Shown: in pieces, positions 1 to 40,123 of the stretch | Layout of the letters: every line of letters begins with the position of its first letter | Numbering within the stretch: the stretch's first letter is position 1 | Origin: a virus | DNA length: 40,123 nt | Reading direction: 5' to 3' (one strand) | Virus record (IMG/VR): IMGVR_UViG_3300031226_000005 | Coordinates: 1-40,123 of that record | Notes under the pieces: generated by a model | What the model was told of the DNA's origin: nothing | The model's input: only the letters and a program-made list of their open reading frames with translations | The model's database searches: none | Translations under genes and position numbers: made by a program

Positions 1-127
1 CGGGAAGCGCCGCGCTGGTCCGACGGAGCGAAAGAGCGCTTCAAAGCGGACTGGCAAGCGCAGTACGCCGGCGACGGGCCGGCTACTGGCGGAACGCCGA
101 TTCTCGAGGACGGCATGGCGTTCAACG
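1..127. repeat. Terminal direct repeat, left copy (circular junction)
   Basis: Bases 1-127 are identical to 39997-40123. The repeat lies inside the portal gene, which reads through it in frame. A length of exactly 127 matches the largest k-mer commonly used by short-read assemblers, so it most likely marks a circular contig rather than a biological terminal repeat. Confidence 0.95.
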
Positions 128-26612: not shown

Positions 26613-27021
26613 CGAGCTGGCCGCCTGGCCGTTTCCGGGAGACTCGCCCGTCGTGCGTGCCCGGCGGGTCGCGCTGGCGTACCGTGCCCGGCTCGCGGAA
26701 GTCGATCCGGCAGGCTGCGCAGCGATTGACAAGCGCGTCAACCGGTGGGGGCAGAGCTGGGCGGCACCGAGTGAACACTTCGACTTGGATGATTGGATCA
26801 GCGCGCGGGATGCGGCACGGCTCGCCAGTGTCCAAGTTAGCCGGATAGGGAAGTGGCGCCGGGCTGGCCGGCTGCCGGGCCGGCTCTGTACGCGGCTGTC
26901 CCGGACGCGGCTTACTAACGCATCGGCGCGGCACACGTGGGAATACCAGGTACGGGATGTGTTGAATCTGTCGACGAGCGTGCGGGCAAGGGGGGAGAGA
27001 CGAGATCATGACGGACACTGA
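26602..27021 (+). CDS. HTH DNA-binding protein
   Basis: A 139-aa basic protein. Residues 64-92 (DWISARDAARLASVQVSRIG, then KWRRAGRL) form a MerR/excisionase-like helix-turn-helix, followed by an Arg-rich segment and a C-terminal YQVRDVLNLS that fits the usual wing and helix. It is a candidate regulator or excisionase. ATG 26602 overlaps the gene before, and a second ATG follows at 26605. It overlaps the next gene by 14 bases. Confidence 0.72.
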   Translation: MMADELAAWPFPGDSPVVRARRVALAYRARLAEVDPAGCAAIDKRVNRWGQSWAAPSEHFDLDDWISARDAARLASVQVSRIGKWRRAGRLPGRLCTRLSRTRLTNASARHTWEYQVRDVLNLSTSVRARGERRDHDGH

Positions 27022-27547
27022 ATACGTCGAGACGATAGCGGGCGCTGCGGTAGCGCTCAAGGCGATGATGTTCGATGACGGCGAGGCGGTCAGCTTCGCG
27101 CTCGCCGGGCTCGGGGAGATTGAGAAACGCAGCGACTATCCGGCGATTGAGCACGCGTTGGCATTGTGGACGGACATGCTGTGTAATCACATGTTCGCGG
27201 GGAAGATTCCGCACAACATCGCTGTCATGGGCGCAACGATGATCCGGCTCGACGCAGGGCAGCGCACAGACTTCGTGCTGGGCTCCGCACAGGCCGACAT
27301 GGAAGTACCGGCGGCGTTTCAGTGGGCGGGACAGGTCATCTCTGCTCGCATATCGCTCGATCGGCCCCGATTCGAACGGCTGTGGGACGAGGCTCCGTGC
27401 GAGTCCGAAGCGTTCGGCCAGCATGTACTCGCAGTGCTGACGACGTGCGCTAGGACCATCACTAGAACGAAACGCGGCTACGCGCTCGAGAACGTAGCGC
27501 ACCGTTCGGATTGCGCACGCAGCAAGGGGGACGGTGAGGAAGCGTGA
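27008..27547 (+). CDS. Unrecognised helical protein
   Basis: A 179-aa protein from ATG 27008 with GGGGGAGAGACG upstream. No family recognised. It is mainly alpha helical with regular hydrophobic positions (YVETIAGAAVALKAMMFDDG, PAIEHALALWTDMLCNHMF, VPAAFQWAGQVISARIS) and a Cys/Arg/Lys-rich tail. It overlaps the Zn-ribbon gene by GTGA. Confidence 0.7.
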   Translation: MTDTEYVETIAGAAVALKAMMFDDGEAVSFALAGLGEIEKRSDYPAIEHALALWTDMLCNHMFAGKIPHNIAVMGATMIRLDAGQRTDFVLGSAQADMEVPAAFQWAGQVISARISLDRPRFERLWDEAPCESEAFGQHVLAVLTTCARTITRTKRGYALENVAHRSDCARSKGDGEEA

Positions 27548-28170
27548 GTTATACGTGCCCGGCGTGCGGGTCGACGAGTCAAAGCGCGGACGACGAGCGG
27601 AATCGCTATTGCGGTCGCTGCCACCGGTTCGAGGACGACCTTCAACTTCACGAATTCCCGCGCGACGATTTCGAAGGGAACGGAGTGCACGTGCTCAGCA
27701 CTGCTGAGCTGGCGGCTGAACTGGAGGCGTATCTCAGCGCAGTTGACGAAACTGTTGACGCTGTCACGGATCAGGAGATAGAGGAACGGCTACAAAAGAC
27801 TTTGGCGGCGGTAGGGATGACGACATCGGAGGATGCTGACGTGAGCCACGTTCGGGTGACGGAGACTGCCGCCGGCACGGTAGACGGGCCGCTGGTGATC
27901 CGGATTCTCGGCATCGGGAATCAGAAAACGCCGTTTGACGGGCAGTGGTTGACGGAGTACGACCCGAGCCGGGAAGGCGTCGATCCGGACGGCAACCCGA
28001 TGGTGGCGCACGTGCGGACGTCAGCTGACAAGTCGCAGGCGCTGCGCTTCAACGGCTGGGTTGAGGCGCACGCGTTGTGGTGCAAGGAAACCGGGCACGT
28101 TCGTCCGGACGGGCAAAAGGATCGGCCGTTGACGGCGTTCGCAATCAGTATCGAGCCGGCCGATGACTGA
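27544..28170 (+). CDS. Zn-ribbon protein with C-terminal phage domain
   Basis: A 208-aa protein from GTG 27544. C5-x2-C8 and C23-x2-C26 form an N-terminal zinc ribbon (YTCPACGST, RYCGRCHRFE). A helical linker follows. The C-terminal part has RILGIGNQKTPFDGQWLTEY, then PMVAHVRTSADKSQALRF and AFAISIEP, a pattern I associate with a small conserved domain in actinophage and bacterial proteins of unknown role. It overlaps the next gene by eight bases. Confidence 0.74.
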   Translation: MSYTCPACGSTSQSADDERNRYCGRCHRFEDDLQLHEFPRDDFEGNGVHVLSTAELAAELEAYLSAVDETVDAVTDQEIEERLQKTLAAVGMTTSEDADVSHVRVTETAAGTVDGPLVIRILGIGNQKTPFDGQWLTEYDPSREGVDPDGNPMVAHVRTSADKSQALRFNGWVEAHALWCKETGHVRPDGQKDRPLTAFAISIEPADD

Positions 28171-30337: not shown

Positions 30338-30394
30338 GGGCGAACCAGGAGCTCTGCCCTTTGTGCCGCGTTGGCCGTTTCCGGAGCGTGCACT

Positions 30395-30763
30395 GTGCCG
30401 AATCGGCCGCTAGAGAAATGCAGCACGCCGGGATGTCCCGGCCGCACCGCTGCGGGTGGACGATGCGGACGCTGCCGGGGCGGCAGGCTGTTTACGGGCC
30501 GTACCGACGACGCATCCGAGGTCTACACGCGTCGTCCGTGGCGCGCCAGGCGGCTGGAATACCTCGCAGCGCATCCGTTCTGCACCCTCTGCGGCGTTGC
30601 CGCGACGGTGCCGGATCACTACCCGAAAAGCCGGCGTGCGCTCGTCGCTGCCGGTGTGGCCGATCCGGACGCTGACGAGCGGCTACGACCGTTGTGCGCT
30701 TCGTGTCACAACCGGTCGACAGCGGGCCGGCAGCCGGGCGGATGGAATCGAGTGGGCTCATGA
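30395..30763 (+). CDS. HNH endonuclease
   Basis: A 122-aa protein from GTG 30395 with CCGGAG upstream. The N-terminus has a small Zn site (C9, C14, C24-x2-C27) as in HNH proteins of actinophage packaging modules. The core shows C63-x2-C66, Asp74-His75 (VPDHYP) and C101-x2-C104-His105-Asn106 (LCASCHNRS). Such enzymes act with the terminase during DNA packaging, usually in cos-type phages. Here the terminase genes begin only 3.6 kb further on, past the PLP/methyltransferase pair. It overlaps the next gene by ATGA. Confidence 0.87.
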   Translation: MPNRPLEKCSTPGCPGRTAAGGRCGRCRGGRLFTGRTDDASEVYTRRPWRARRLEYLAAHPFCTLCGVAATVPDHYPKSRRALVAAGVADPDADERLRPLCASCHNRSTAGRQPGGWNRVGS

Positions 30764-30984
30764 GCGGCGCGCTCGTCGCTGTGCTGGTCGTTGCCGCGGT
30801 GCTCGCGTACCGGGCCGGCAGCAGACATCGGGCGTTCAGCCTGGCGCGGGCTGACGTGCGGGCACAACGCGGCAAGCTGCGTGCGGCGCGGCAGGCACGC
30901 ACCGCGCTAGGGCGCATCGCACTCGCCGGCTGGACGCTGCTGCTCGTCTGCGTCGTTGTCGCCGCGCTGGTGTTTGCTCTGTAG
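30760..30984 (+). CDS. Two-span small membrane protein
   Basis: A 74-aa protein from ATG 30760 (ATGA overlap with HNH). Residues 3-16 (GALVAVLVVAAVLAY) and 53-74 (IALAGWTLLLVCVVVAALVF) are membrane segments, with a basic helical loop between them. No family recognised. Its 3' end overlaps the end of the leftward gene at 30907. Confidence 0.62.
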   Translation: MSGALVAVLVVAAVLAYRAGSRHRAFSLARADVRAQRGKLRAARQARTALGRIALAGWTLLLVCVVVAALVFAL

Positions 30985-31593
30985 CCGGCGGATGTACGTC
31001 GCCGTTTCGTCAGGCGTGGTCGGGATGTCCAGCTTCCGCAGCGCTGCGACGTCGGCCTGGCCTGCCGGCAGGCGTTCCGCGACAGCCACGGTCATGTCTC
31101 GCAGCGCTGCCATGACGGGGCCGACAAGCGCGGGCATCGGGCCTTCCTGTCCGGCCACGAGGGGCTTTGCGCCGCGTCTGCGGTGGATGCCGTACACGTT
31201 GCCGCGGATGTCTACCGCGCTGGTGTCGCGCGACTCGTACGAGCCGGGTATGTCGGCAAGCGACCGCGTCCGGGTTCGGTGCTGCTCAGGTGTCAGCTCT
31301 GTGTTTGACCAGCTTTCGACGAACAGTGCGAATCCGAAGAAAGCCTCATCCGCGATGATGGCGGCAAACTCCGCATCGCTGGCTATCGCATCGGCGAGAT
31401 GCCGCAGATACTCGCCTACCGGGTTCCCTAGGTGCGTTGGCAGGGGGTCCAGCCCGAGCACGGCCTTGCCGGACGGCAGCGGTAGCCAGCGCAACTCAGC
31501 GATGACGGCCGGCTGATCCCATCCGCGGGCGTTCACGCCCTGCTCAATCTTGCGCAGCAACTGCGTAACGACAGCGCGGTCCGGAACTCTCAC
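30907..31593 (-). CDS. Unrecognised 228-aa protein, leftward
   Basis: Starts at GTG 31593 (minus), inside the stop of a 32-codon leader frame (GTGA). The N-terminus, QLLRKIEQGVNARGWDQPAV, resembles a segment I have seen in actinobacterial proteins of unknown role, followed by a helical region (VGEYLRHLADAIASDAEFAAII) and a tail rich in Arg, Gln and Asp. It is opposite in direction to its neighbours and overlaps the membrane gene by 78 bases tail to tail. It may be a moron of host origin. Confidence 0.65.
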   Translation of the reverse strand: MRVPDRAVVTQLLRKIEQGVNARGWDQPAVIAELRWLPLPSGKAVLGLDPLPTHLGNPVGEYLRHLADAIASDAEFAAIIADEAFFGFALFVESWSNTELTPEQHRTRTRSLADIPGSYESRDTSAVDIRGNVYGIHRRRGAKPLVAGQEGPMPALVGPVMAALRDMTVAVAERLPAGQADVAALRKLDIPTTPDETATYIRRLQSKHQRGDNDADEQQRPAGECDAP

Positions 31594-31688: not shown

Positions 31689-31899
31689 GACGTTGACGGG
31701 CAAGGCATCGATGCTCGTGGCGCGGCTCATCGACGACGGTGACGGGTAGGGATGTCCGGATAGATCGATGGATGGTCCCGGTGCAGCCCGCGTTAGGCGA
31801 CATTTTCCACGTGCAGGTTAATCGAGCTGTCGCGATGCTTCGCAGCGCTACCGATCGAGAAACAACGATACTTCGCACGGTTCCGATCGGAGTATGCCG
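31689..31899. other. Divergent intergenic region before the PLP gene
   Basis: This stretch lies between the leftward leader and the rightward PLP gene and should hold promoters for both. Repeated CCGATCG occurs at about 31853 and 31882, and ATACT/AGTAT form a loose inverted pair next to the PLP start. No clear -35/-10 pair was identified. A packaging (cos) site is possible here or nearby but could not be seen. Confidence 0.4.
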
Positions 31900-32808
31900 A
31901 TGACTTCGCGCTTGAAACCGCGCACAGACAGACGAGCCGATCGCAGCGCTGCTGTCGTCGACGCTGACGAACTGACTCCCGTCCAGTGGCACAGCAGCAT
32001 CGCGTACAAACGCGACGATCTATATCTCCCGTTCGCGGACGTCGACTTAAACGGCGGCAAAGTCCGGCAAGCGATCAAACTCGTTGAGGCGAACCTGCCC
32101 GCCATCCGCAAGCGCTACGGCTCGACACTGCTGACAGCGACAGGCGTGCACTCCCCGCAAGGGCTGATCATTGCCCGCGTCGCTGCGCTGTTTGACCTGT
32201 CGTGCGTGCTGTTCATCGGCGCGACGTCCGTCGCCCGTGCACTGACCGGGCATCCGATGTTGCGCGCCGCTGTCCAGCTGGGCGCGACACTCGACGCGTC
32301 CGCGCGCGTCGCGTACGAGCCGGCCCTAGCCAAGGCCGTCGACAGCTGGCGCTCCGCTCACAGCGGAGCCGGCTTCCCGATCCGTTTCGGGATGAACCTC
32401 GACAGCGACCCTGCTGCGATCGTCGGCAGTACGGCAGCACAGTGCGCGAACATCCCGGACGATATCCATACCGTCGTCATCCCGGTCGGGGCCGGCATCA
32501 CTGCCGCGGGCATTATCACAGGCTGCCGGACGCTGCGCCCGGCCGTCCAGCGCATCGTCTGCGTCCAGATTGCAGGCTATGACCGTCGACCTGTCATCGA
32601 TCGGATCACGCCGTACCGCGATTACGAGTTCATGTCATCGCGCGCGTATCAGTACGCGACGCACGTGCGCCGGTACGTCGCGCCGCGCTTCCCGCTGGAC
32701 CCGATTTACGAAGCGAAAGCGCACGAGTACATGATCCGCCGCATCCCGATCGAACGGGAACACACTTTGTTTTGGGTCGTCGGAGACTCCGGCTATGTCC
32801 GTGACTGA
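31900..32808 (+). CDS. PLP-dependent enzyme, ACC deaminase / cysteine desulfhydrase-like (fold type II)
   Basis: A 302-aa protein; ATG 31900 is chosen because GGAG lies seven bases upstream (ATG 31894 is too close). Motifs fit fold-type II PLP enzymes of the ACC deaminase/D-cysteine desulfhydrase group: the likely Schiff-base lysine in DLNGGKVRQAIKL (Lys54), the TGVHSPQGLIIARVAALFDL region corresponding to the SNQ substrate loop, and the phosphate-binding VVIPVGAGITAAGIITG (about 193-208). The YKRDDLYLP start is also typical. It overlaps the ParB-methyltransferase gene by 14 bases, so the two are probably made together. A role in DNA base modification with an amino-acid-derived group is my inference; metabolic roles are possible. 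Confidence 0.8.
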   Translation: MTSRLKPRTDRRADRSAAVVDADELTPVQWHSSIAYKRDDLYLPFADVDLNGGKVRQAIKLVEANLPAIRKRYGSTLLTATGVHSPQGLIIARVAALFDLSCVLFIGATSVARALTGHPMLRAAVQLGATLDASARVAYEPALAKAVDSWRSAHSGAGFPIRFGMNLDSDPAAIVGSTAAQCANIPDDIHTVVIPVGAGITAAGIITGCRTLRPAVQRIVCVQIAGYDRRPVIDRITPYRDYEFMSSRAYQYATHVRRYVAPRFPLDPIYEAKAHEYMIRRIPIEREHTLFWVVGDSGYVRD

Positions 32809-34339
32809 CCGCCCATCGTCTGACGTCGACAGAAAGAGCAACATGCCGCAAAGCGCCGTCATCGTCGAGCAGCTGCAATCCCTCGCCGTGCCGATCGACA
32901 ACTTGCAGGAAGACCCGGAGAACGCCCGGCGCGGCGACGTCGCCGCTATCCGCCGATCTCTGAACGTGTTCGGGCAGCGCAAGCCTGTCGTTGTGAAGCG
33001 GACCGGTGTCGACGCGGCCGGCCGCCCGACCGGCATCGTGATTGCCGGCAACCACACGTTTCACGCAGCGTGCGACTTGGAGTGGTCGCACATCGCCGCT
33101 GTGTTCGTCGACGACGACGAAAGCACTGCCCGCGCGTACGCCCTCGCGGACAACCGGACGGGCGAACTCGCGACGTGGGATGACGAGCAGCTGTCCGCGA
33201 CGCTGCGCGCACTGGACGCCACGGACTTCGACATGGAAACGCTCGGCTGGTCCAACGATGACCTCGCTGCGCTGCTGTCTGCCGGACCGTATGACGACGA
33301 CAACGACAGCGCTGACAGCTCAGCTGCCGATGACGACGACGCTGCGGCACCGATCGAGCCGCTTGTGTTCCCGAATGAAACGATCGTCGCTGCCGCATTC
33401 GAGCACTTCCGCGCGTCCGGCTATCCACTTCCGAACGTCCCGCGCTACGCAGCAATGCAGGAAATCAACGCGCTCGCCGCGACGGACACCGTGAAGCTAC
33501 TCGGGACCAACGTTGCGTACCACGTCGCAGACAAATACCAGCCGCACCGATTCTCGACGCGCGTCCAGAAAATGAAGACACCGCTCGAAGTCTTCGAATC
33601 CGACGCCAGTCTTACGCACGCGTTCCGCCTCACGCTGGAAGACCGCCCGATCTCTGACGGCTCGCTACGCAGCGCCATGAACTTTGTCCACGGTGCACAG
33701 ACGGCCGCGCAGTTTCGGCCGGGCTTCGCACTCATGATGTATCGCCGCTTCGCCCCGGCCGGCGGCACAGTCCTCGACACATCGACAGGCTTCGGTGGGC
33801 GCCTCACCGGCTTTTTTGCGTCGCACTGCGAGACGTATATCGGCATCGATCCGAACACTGTCACGTCTGCCGGCAACACCGCGCTAGCCAACGACTTGTG
33901 TCCCGCGGACAAAACAGTAGAGCTGCACTGTCTGCCTGCTGAGGACGTGCCACACGAAGCGCTTGCCGGCCGTGCGCACTTCGCGTTTACGTCGCCACCG
34001 TACTTCGCCAAAGAGCTCTACAGCGACGAGGCGACACAGTCCTGCGTGCGCTACCGCAGCGCCGAAGACTGGCGCACAGGCTTCCTCGTGCCGATGCTGG
34101 GCCTACAGTTCGTCGCGCTGCTGCCCGGCGCATACTCGTGCGTCAACATCGCGGACGTCAAGCTAGGCAGCGAGACACACCCGCTCGTGCAATGGACGAT
34201 CGATGCCGCACTTGACGTCGGATTCACGTACGAGCGCACGGAAGAATTCCCGCTGTCGCGCGTGCCGGGACGCGGCGAGCAGCTGGACGCCTTCGAATCC
34301 GTCATCGTGTTGCGCCGTCCAGAAAGGAAAACGTCATGA
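32795..34339 (+). CDS. ParB-domain / DNA methyltransferase fusion
   Basis: A 514-aa protein. Residues 28-125 form a ParB/Srx-like domain (NARRGDVAAIRRSLNVFGQR, IVIAGNHTFHAA with Gly85-Asn-His, and ARAYALADNRTGELATW). An acidic linker (165-187) follows. The C-terminal part is a SAM-dependent methyltransferase: motif I VLDTSTGFGGRLTGFFAS at 325-342 with YIGIDPN, and motif IV Ser399-Pro-Pro-Tyr402 (FTSPPYF), as in N4-cytosine or N6-adenine enzymes. ATG 32795 has GGAGA eight bases upstream; ATG 32843 is an alternative. It overlaps terS by ATGA. It may protect phage DNA, or take part in a modification with the PLP enzyme. Confidence 0.85.
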   Translation: MSVTDRPSSDVDRKSNMPQSAVIVEQLQSLAVPIDNLQEDPENARRGDVAAIRRSLNVFGQRKPVVVKRTGVDAAGRPTGIVIAGNHTFHAACDLEWSHIAAVFVDDDESTARAYALADNRTGELATWDDEQLSATLRALDATDFDMETLGWSNDDLAALLSAGPYDDDNDSADSSAADDDDAAAPIEPLVFPNETIVAAAFEHFRASGYPLPNVPRYAAMQEINALAATDTVKLLGTNVAYHVADKYQPHRFSTRVQKMKTPLEVFESDASLTHAFRLTLEDRPISDGSLRSAMNFVHGAQTAAQFRPGFALMMYRRFAPAGGTVLDTSTGFGGRLTGFFASHCETYIGIDPNTVTSAGNTALANDLCPADKTVELHCLPAEDVPHEALAGRAHFAFTSPPYFAKELYSDEATQSCVRYRSAEDWRTGFLVPMLGLQFVALLPGAYSCVNIADVKLGSETHPLVQWTIDAALDVGFTYERTEEFPLSRVPGRGEQLDAFESVIVLRRPERKTS

Positions 34340-34794
34340 AACCTGGGCCTGCACCCAAGCCGACCGTGCTCCGCCTGCTGCACGGTGATCAGCCGTGCCG
34401 GACAAATCTGGACGAGCCGAAGCCTGCGCCCGGCAAGCCGGAGTGCCCGCCGGAAGTGTCGGACGACGTTCGCGCAATTTGGAATTACACGCTGGACCAT
34501 CTGATCGTCATGGGCGTCTGTACCGGCGCTGACCGGGATGCGCTGCTCGCCTACTGCGAGGCCGTTGCCGCGCATCGCAAGGCATCCGCGCTGCTCGCCA
34601 AGTCGCCGCCGCTAATTCAAGGCCATCGCGGCGTCATGGTTCGCAACCCGGCTCTGGCAATCCAACGCGACAGCGCTGCCGTGATCCGCGCGTACGCGCA
34701 TGAGTTCGGCCTCACGCCGGCTGCCCGTTCCGAAATTCGCATGGGCGGCGCAGGCTCCGGCCAGGGTTCTGCGGAACGCTACCTGACGGGCTAG
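34336..34794 (+). CDS. terS: Terminase small subunit, P27 family
   Basis: A 152-aa DNA-recognition subunit of the packaging motor. MKPGPAPKPTVLRLLHGDQP at the start, followed by PECPPEVSDDVRAIWNYTLD, and the helical YCEAVAAHRKASALLAKSP and NPALAIQRDSAAVIRAYAHE segments are diagnostic for P27-type small terminases. AGAAAGGAAAACGTC precedes ATG 34336. The gene ends 19 bases before a palindromic terminator, and terL is 1.3 kb further, separated by a leftward cassette, so the two terminase genes are not on one simple transcript. Confidence 0.92.
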   Translation: MKPGPAPKPTVLRLLHGDQPCRTNLDEPKPAPGKPECPPEVSDDVRAIWNYTLDHLIVMGVCTGADRDALLAYCEAVAAHRKASALLAKSPPLIQGHRGVMVRNPALAIQRDSAAVIRAYAHEFGLTPAARSEIRMGGAGSGQGSAERYLTG

Positions 34795-39342: not shown

Positions 39343-40123
39343 ATGGCGTTTGTAGTGACCTCCGGTCAATTGCAGGCTGTGGAGCGACGTGCTGAATACT
39401 CGTCATACAGTGCCGCATCCGTTGCGCTGTCACCGACGCTGGTCATGACGTACGGGCAGCTCTGGAAAGCTCAGCCTGCTTTGCGTTCCGTGACAAGCTT
39501 TCTGGCACGTAGCGTTTCGTCACTGCCGATCGACCCGTATCGGCGGCTCGGCGGCACCGATCGGGAAAAGGCGACGGATCACCCGCTGGCCCGACTGCTC
39601 GACCAGCCGATGGGGATCGGTAGCAAGTGGACTAAGTACCGGCTGTTCAACACGCTCATGCATGACCTGACGGTGTTTGACAGTGCGTACTGGCTGAAAA
39701 TGACTGGCCCGACTGGTGAGCGCAACGTCCAGCCGATCCCGCCGACCCGGATCACGCCGCGCGGGGGGAACTTTTTCGCCCCGGAAACGTATCGGATTGC
39801 CGGCAACAACGGGCATCGCGACGTCGACCCGGATCAGGTCGTCCACTTTCATGGGTACAACCCGGACGATCACCGTGTCGGTTGCGCTCCTGTCGAGACG
39901 TTGCGGCAGATTCTCGCAGAGGAATATTCCGCGAGCATCTACCGCGAACAGATGTGGCGCAACGGTGCGCGCGTCGCTGGGTATCTGAGCCGGCCGCGGG
40001 AAGCGCCGCGCTGGTCCGACGGAGCGAAAGAGCGCTTCAAAGCGGACTGGCAAGCGCAGTACGCCGGCGACGGGCCGGCTACTGGCGGAACGCCGATTCT
40101 CGAGGACGGCATGGCGTTCAACG
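39343..40123 (+). CDS. Portal protein, N-terminal part (runs through the contig end into 1-939)
   Basis: ATG at 39343 follows a purine-rich GGGGACGGAGG site. The frame stays open to the last base and continues at base 128 of the window, giving a 530-aa HK97-type portal (Phage_portal family). The piece shows typical portal segments: LWKAQPALRSVTSFLARSVS near residues 41-60, a DHPLARLLDQP segment, and a DPDQVVHFHGYNPDD motif followed by the GCAPVETLRQIL helix. It acts at the unique capsid vertex, between large terminase (36118) and protease (936), the usual order. The gene looks intact once the circular junction is restored; truncation here is only a consequence of linearisation. Confidence 0.93.
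   Translation, partial: MAFVVTSGQLQAVERRAEYSSYSAASVALSPTLVMTYGQLWKAQPALRSVTSFLARSVSSLPIDPYRRLGGTDREKATDHPLARLLDQPMGIGSKWTKYRLFNTLMHDLTVFDSAYWLKMTGPTGERNVQPIPPTRITPRGGNFFAPETYRIAGNNGHRDVDPDQVVHFHGYNPDDHRVGCAPVETLRQILAEEYSASIYREQMWRNGARVAGYLSRPREAPRWSDGAKERFKADWQAQYAGDGPATGGTPILEDGMAFN
39997..40123. repeat. Terminal direct repeat, right copy (circular junction)
   Basis: Exact copy of bases 1-127. Removing one copy gives a unique circular length of 39,996 bases and restores a full portal gene. Confidence 0.95.

Follow-up and report, generated by a model that had tools for sequence, protein, structure and literature searches.

Does a PLP enzyme whose gene overlaps that of a methyltransferase-like protein in a phage genome work together with that protein, and if so, on what? 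The question is raised by a 40,123-base virus record from IMG/VR, here called the window. An initial annotation, made from the letters alone, had proposed the pair as a candidate DNA hypermodification system. The features referred to below are as follows.

30371-30763: HNH gene (PHROG 589, E 7.5e-16)
30694-30984, plus strand: first ORF separating the HNH gene from the pair
30907-31593, minus strand: second ORF separating the HNH gene from the pair
31894-32808, plus strand: fold-type II PLP enzyme, 304 aa if translated from the first ATG, 302 aa if from the second, at 31900
32053-32067, plus strand: Schiff-base lysine motif G-G-K56-V-R, aligning with GGNK of E. coli DcyD
32149-32160, plus strand: H-S-P-Q loop, residues 86-89; SPQ also in Ackermannviridae PLP enzymes, SNH in DcyD
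32707-32718, plus strand: Y272-E273-A-K275 motif, with E273 the presumed partner of the pyridine nitrogen
32795-34339, plus strand: ParB/Srx-SPPYF methyltransferase (MTase) fusion, 514 aa
32870-33310, plus strand: ParB/Srx-like N-terminal domain, about aa 26-172 (PHROG 723, E 2.9e-34 over aa 26-182)
33371-34336, plus strand: class I methyltransferase-like domain, about aa 193-514 (conserved family A3; class I MTases by Foldseek)
33776-33805, plus strand: SAM-binding motif I, D328-T-S-T-G-F-G-G-R-L; D328, G332, G334, G335 and R336 invariant
33992-34006, plus strand: catalytic motif IV, S400-P-P-Y-F, invariant in 27 homologues
34336-34794: terS (PF05119, E 1.4e-20)

The two genes and their products

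An exact 127-bp repeat at the ends of the window (1-127 and 39997-40123) and a portal gene that spans the repeat junction point strongly to a complete phage genome of ~39,996 bp, and claims of absence therefore carry weight. It encodes terS, terL, portal, protease, capsid, tape measure, exonuclease, primase/polymerase and an integrase-like gene. The PLP and MTase ORFs, whose GC3 is phage-like, lie directly upstream of terS; they share bases 32795-32808, confirming the 14-base overlap first read from the sequence, and the MTase gene in turn overlaps terS by 4 bases. The pair had been placed between the HNH gene and terS, and both of these genes were correctly recognized, but two ORFs intervene on the HNH side. 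The description of the pair as an inserted accessory unit fits the gene order. Near the pair, the genes at 30907-31593 (minus strand) and 27008-28170 (plus strand) have no above-cutoff family match; the product of 27544-28170 is weakly similar to zinc-ribbon and nucleotidyltransferase proteins.

The assignment of the first product to the fold-type II PLP enzymes held up. It matches Pfam PALP above the cutoff (E 8.4e-10) as well as PHROG 3650 (E 6.2e-27) and 7093 (E 4.4e-12), and it possesses the catalytic lysine, the SPQ loop and a glycine-rich loop. Its AlphaFold2 model (pLDDT 90.7) finds as best PDB folds D-cysteine desulfhydrase (Foldseek top match 4d99, E 2.9e-11) and ACC deaminase, and a profile search also puts these two enzymes nearest among solved structures. 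In an alignment of 30 homologues, Arg40-Asp41-Asp42, Gly54, Lys56, Arg58, Tyr272, Lys275, Ala276 and Trp294 are invariant. The lysine was earlier numbered 54 because a different ATG had been taken as the start; GGAG lies 7 nt before the second ATG, a better spacing than for the first, and 31900 may be the true start of the gene.

Of the original description as ACC deaminase-like, the fold survives but the family does not, since the protein scores 31.1 bits with TIGR01275 against a curated cutoff of 289.4. On this score, and because it falls in a separate clade, the possibility that it is an ordinary cellular ACC deaminase or DcyD was rejected. With these families (TIGR01275, TIGR01274) it shares fold type II and the GGxKxR lysine motif; it differs in its DNA-modification context and at position 273, which is Glu or Asp in all of the phage members examined and Thr in E. 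coli DcyD and in another cellular protein resembling DcyD. Carbanion chemistry, for example decarboxylation, is favored when the PLP pyridine nitrogen has an acidic partner, and the residue found in the phage proteins is compatible with chemistry of the decarboxylase type.

In the second protein, a linker (aa 165-183) modeled with low confidence follows the ParB/Srx-like domain. With Pfam ParB_N the window protein scores 16.3, below the cutoff of 26.3, whereas its relative in locus L011 scores 27.7. The C-terminal domain carries the signature of amino (N6-A/N4-C) DNA MTases, namely motif I (consensus DxSxGxGGRL in 27 aligned homologues) and a [DNS]PP[YFW] motif IV on a class I fold. Motif IV sites of the SPPY kind act on exocyclic amines; (D/N/S)PPY and SPPYF-like motifs are also used by RNA and protein (glutamine) MTases. 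Some relatives reach or pass the cutoff of PF01555 (N6_N4_Mtase) but the window MTase does not, its profile matches in the PDB are marginal, and its Foldseek neighbors include the tRNA enzymes Trm11 and CmoB. A ParB/Srx domain before an amino-MTase is also found in the ParB-fused phage DNA methylases (PHROG 498/723, many actinophages), from which the window protein is set apart by its distinct SPPYF MTase family and by its partnership with a PLP enzyme.

Recurrence of the pair, its fusion and its two PLP subtypes

We refer to the PLP subtype of the window as PLP1 and to its sister subtype as PLP2. A scan of viral contigs with the window PLP protein alone yielded 3 relatives, each of them beside the same MTase family: L008 (divergent, with the MTase-family gene beside the PLP gene), L009 (T4-like, gene order PLP-GNAT-MTase) and L010 (T4-like, MTase-PLP). 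A PLP1 profile scan yielded 140 relatives, of which 80 were kept. The SPPYF MTase lies within about 6 kb of the PLP gene in 28 of 88 PLP1 loci, a raw set that includes a few duplicate loci as well as Ackermannviridae and phage-collection records; with stricter cut-offs and scan loci only, it is near PLP1 in 23 of 80, on the same strand in 22. Ten PLP1 contigs longer than 40 kb were searched whole and seven encode the MTase (G004, G005, G006, G009, G013, G014 and G021), while in the other three (47-62 kb, probably fragments) it was not found. Plasmid sequences were searched also, with no match.

The MTase family is broader than the PLP clade. The window MTase domain, used as a single-protein pattern against viral contigs, proved too specific and matched nothing, but a profile scan succeeded. 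Among the 80 MTase-centered loci, 4 contain PLP1 and 6 have any PLP enzyme of the family within 6 kb of the MTase; for whole MTase contigs the PLP1 figure is 4 of 27. In isolates the family is rare, with 10 of 50,697 phage records matched by the window domain and 25 by the L010 protein. Because many phages carry the MTase without a PLP gene, the MTase is the base component and the PLP enzyme a frequent partner, and the MTase can work by itself, perhaps as a plain methylase.

Two loci, L093 and L098, resemble the window in their ParB-MTase gene and lack PLP1; they carry another fold-II PLP enzyme of ~235-260 aa, PLP2, that matches PHROG 7093. An isolate search with PLP2 returned 3 records, and viral contigs hold at least 560 relatives. 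Among the best 80 of these at least 560 loci, which include many close relatives and are thus not all independent, an SPPYF MTase occurs within 5 kb in 66, always on the same strand and usually as the adjacent gene, and within 300 bp in 54.

The association extends to a single polypeptide. In the Erythrobacter phages R6L and ZS04 a PLP domain of the PLP2 subtype is inserted inside a ParB-DNA-methyltransferase, so that the domain order is ParB, MTase motif I, PALP with an intact GGTK, and motif IV as SCPPY. The fused protein exceeds the Pfam cutoffs both for PALP (40.1 bits; cutoff 35) and for N6_N4_Mtase (35.0; cutoff 26.7). The two proteins are

L178:2326-4764: ZS04 fusion protein, 812 aa, annotated as a DNA methyltransferase, the PLP domain between motifs I and IV being unannotated
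L177: R6L fusion protein, gp1, with the same arrangement, from a cultured phage

The published annotation of the R6L protein is DNA modification methylase, with mention of a CcrM-like domain, and the passages of the genome paper that deal with this protein make no mention of a PLP domain (PMC5463345). Microcystis phage Mae-JY30 instead encodes ParB, MTase and PLP separately, in three genes that overlap one another and immediately precede the terminase region. We found no description of a PLP/DNA-MTase pair in the open-access literature.

The trees bear on the relationship between the two subtypes. In the PLP tree, the Ackermannviridae PLP falls together with PLP1 and PLP2 in a single phage clade of 37 rows (support 100/99), inside which it groups with PLP1 (95/99). 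This clade is sister to the DcyD-like enzymes and lies apart from other cellular fold-II enzymes. The MTase tree of 71 rows requires at least 14 switches among the labels PLP1, PLP2 and none, 6-7 being forced for each of the two PLP labels, and the PLP1 loci L009, L066 and L070 are nested in an MTase clade otherwise paired with PLP2. PLP1 and PLP2 have substituted for one another beside the same MTases, and since one replaces the other in this way, it can be argued that they share a job.

The co-occurrence of PLP and MTase is strong; it recurs whatever the type of phage and is seen in unrelated uncultured phages. The initial annotation had proposed looking for both families together in other phages, and they are found so in PLP1 loci, in the best PLP2 loci and in the natural fusion.

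A proposed pathway and its rivals

The known PLP-tailored phage bases start from 5-hydroxymethyl-dU (5-hmdU). In work on thymidine hypermodification, PLP-dependent decarboxylases and acetyltransferases are said to sculpt amino acids on 5-hmdU, and acetyltransferases occur near PLP/MTase loci as they reportedly do near 5-hmdU genes. The Ackermannviridae PLP, which is listed among genes for 5-hmdU transformation and hypermodification (PMC6336734), is homologous to the window enzyme and like it in the SPQ and YExK...LFW motifs. Its system (ViI type) comprises the PLP enzyme, kinases, pyrophosphorylase-like transferases and a dUMP hydroxymethyltransferase; the PLP partner in the window is by contrast a putative DNA MTase with an exocyclic-amine site. 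No match to the thymidylate-synthase fold of dUMP hydroxymethylases (PF00303) was found in the complete window genome, and PHROG scans of most window genes, many of which belong to no family, gave none for a 5-hmdU DNA kinase or an amino-acid:DNA transferase. Since it lacks a thymidylate-synthase-fold gene, the phage does not itself supply the 5-hmdU route, and membership of the pair in such a pathway was rejected.

A second point of comparison is the CmoA-CmoX-CmoY carboxymethylcytosine system, in which a DNA-MTase homologue installs a non-methyl handle that is tailored further, often with ParBc neighbors (PMC12783734). The scheme proposed below is similar in that a phage DNA-MTase homologue, with a ParB domain, would install a non-methyl handle for later tailoring. 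CmoX, a C5-MTase, carries SPPC together with an Arg for carboxy-SAM, whereas the window protein has SPPYF and a PLP partner; neither a CmoA nor a ligase was seen with the window pair. CmoX-type carboxymethylation was rejected, the motif being invariably SPPYF and not SPPC.

There is good support for joint action of the PLP enzyme and the MTase-like protein, with DNA as the most probable target. Because the pairing, once in the form of a fusion, recurs across unrelated viruses, the pair probably decorates viral DNA bases with an amino-acid-derived group, and the original proposal of DNA hypermodification gains from the co-occurrence, from the fusion and from the grouping with the Ackermannviridae PLP. 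We consider it rather likely that the two proteins act on DNA as an installer and a tailoring enzyme. In the pathway that we infer, from its DNA substrate to the order of its steps, they would be successive enzymes of a hypermodification that does not pass through 5-hmdU. The ParB/Srx domain would bring the MTase-like domain to phage DNA, where its SPPY site would modify an exocyclic amine (N6 of adenine or N4 of cytosine) with a group taken from SAM. Rather than methyl, this group would most likely be 3-amino-3-carboxypropyl, the amino-acid portion of SAM. Next, the PLP enzyme would form an aldimine with the alpha-amino group of the adduct and tailor it, the likeliest reaction being decarboxylation, which would yield an amine; larger relatives may decorate the product further by means of an AspH-type oxygenase and a GNAT acyltransferase. 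The purpose would probably be protection from host nucleases.

The particular chemistry, aminocarboxypropyl transfer followed by decarboxylation, is put forward tentatively and is itself doubtful, and none of the sequence features tested predicts aminocarboxypropyl transfer. Similarly speculative is the idea that uncultured marine phages widely possess a novel class of DNA base in which aminocarboxypropyl, placed on the exocyclic amine of adenine or cytosine, is decarboxylated to a cationic aminopropyl group by a PLP enzyme adjacent to the MTase homologue or contained in it, with optional AspH hydroxylation and GNAT acylation. If the pair does work without 5-hmdU, amino-acid chemistry on DNA would have a second route, independent of the first; the proposal, if true, would also contribute an enzyme family for site-directed DNA functionalization and account for the presence of this gene pair in many uncultured viral contigs.

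The order of the steps might be reversed, with the PLP enzyme converting SAM or a free amino acid to a modified cofactor, such as decarboxylated SAM or another SAM analogue, that the MTase-like protein transfers to the base. We think this unlikely. To our knowledge, no PLP enzyme of this fold acts on SAM as a donor maker, and the 5-hmdU pathways, to which the closest characterized phage PLP relatives belong (PMC6336734), are thought to tailor groups already bound to DNA. Nevertheless, there is a precedent for such donor synthesis in CmoA, which supplies carboxy-SAM to CmoX, with ParBc neighbors (PMC12783734), the physical fusion in R6L would permit channeling, and where no PLP gene is present the MTase could in that case just methylate.

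Still less probable is plain m6A or m4C methylation by the ParB-MTase, with the PLP gene a linked but separate metabolic gene of the D-cysteine desulfhydrase/ACC-deaminase type, an alternative that the initial annotation had kept and that recurrent pairing and fusion now make unlikely. The similarity of the relatives to N6_N4_Mtase, the nearest solved structures of the PLP enzyme and the many phages with the MTase alone would all be accommodated. Yet PLP genes pair recurrently with three types of MTase (SPPYF, SCPPY and HsdM, the last in a single Bacteroidales MAG), PLP1 and PLP2 are exchanged beside the same MTases, the two activities are naturally fused, and the PLP score is far under the DcyD/ACC deaminase cutoff. 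That RNA or protein rather than DNA is modified seems very improbable, for the Trm11 and CmoB structural neighbors, the use of similar motifs by RNA and glutamine MTases and the action of AspH-type oxygenases on protein elsewhere are opposed by the ParB/Srx fusion, the N6_N4 DNA-MTase partners, the hsdM/hsdS linkage in Bacteroidales and the CcrM-like match reported in the passages on the fused R6L protein (PMC5463345).

Accessory neighbors of the PLP gene

Several other genes cluster with the PLP gene. An AspH-type 2-oxoglutarate oxygenase does so in 18 loci with PLP1 and in 20 with PLP2, in larger phages; a GNAT gene does so in 11 loci and a second N6_N4 MTase in 16. In L009 (4901-7304) and similar T4-like loci, the oxygenase, which has an unassigned N-terminal domain, and the GNAT flank the PLP gene. 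The second N6_N4_Mtase homologue (L010:3861-4529 and 15 further loci) mostly has S(P/L)PDISQ in place of SPPY. A C-terminal extension of the L095 MTase resembled a GNAT by eye but was set aside, since it gave no Pfam match.

In a Bacteroidales MAG, two separate PLP1 copies (within L172:7884-11667 and L173:1748-4375) lie directly upstream of a type I hsdM-like gene (TIGR00497, E 8.5e-47, below the curated cutoff), which in L172 is followed by hsdS (PF01420); at a third Bacteroidales PLP1 copy, L174, hsdM is absent. Finally, a third, divergent fold-II PLP protein (L165:6330-7142) adjoins an SPPYF MTase.
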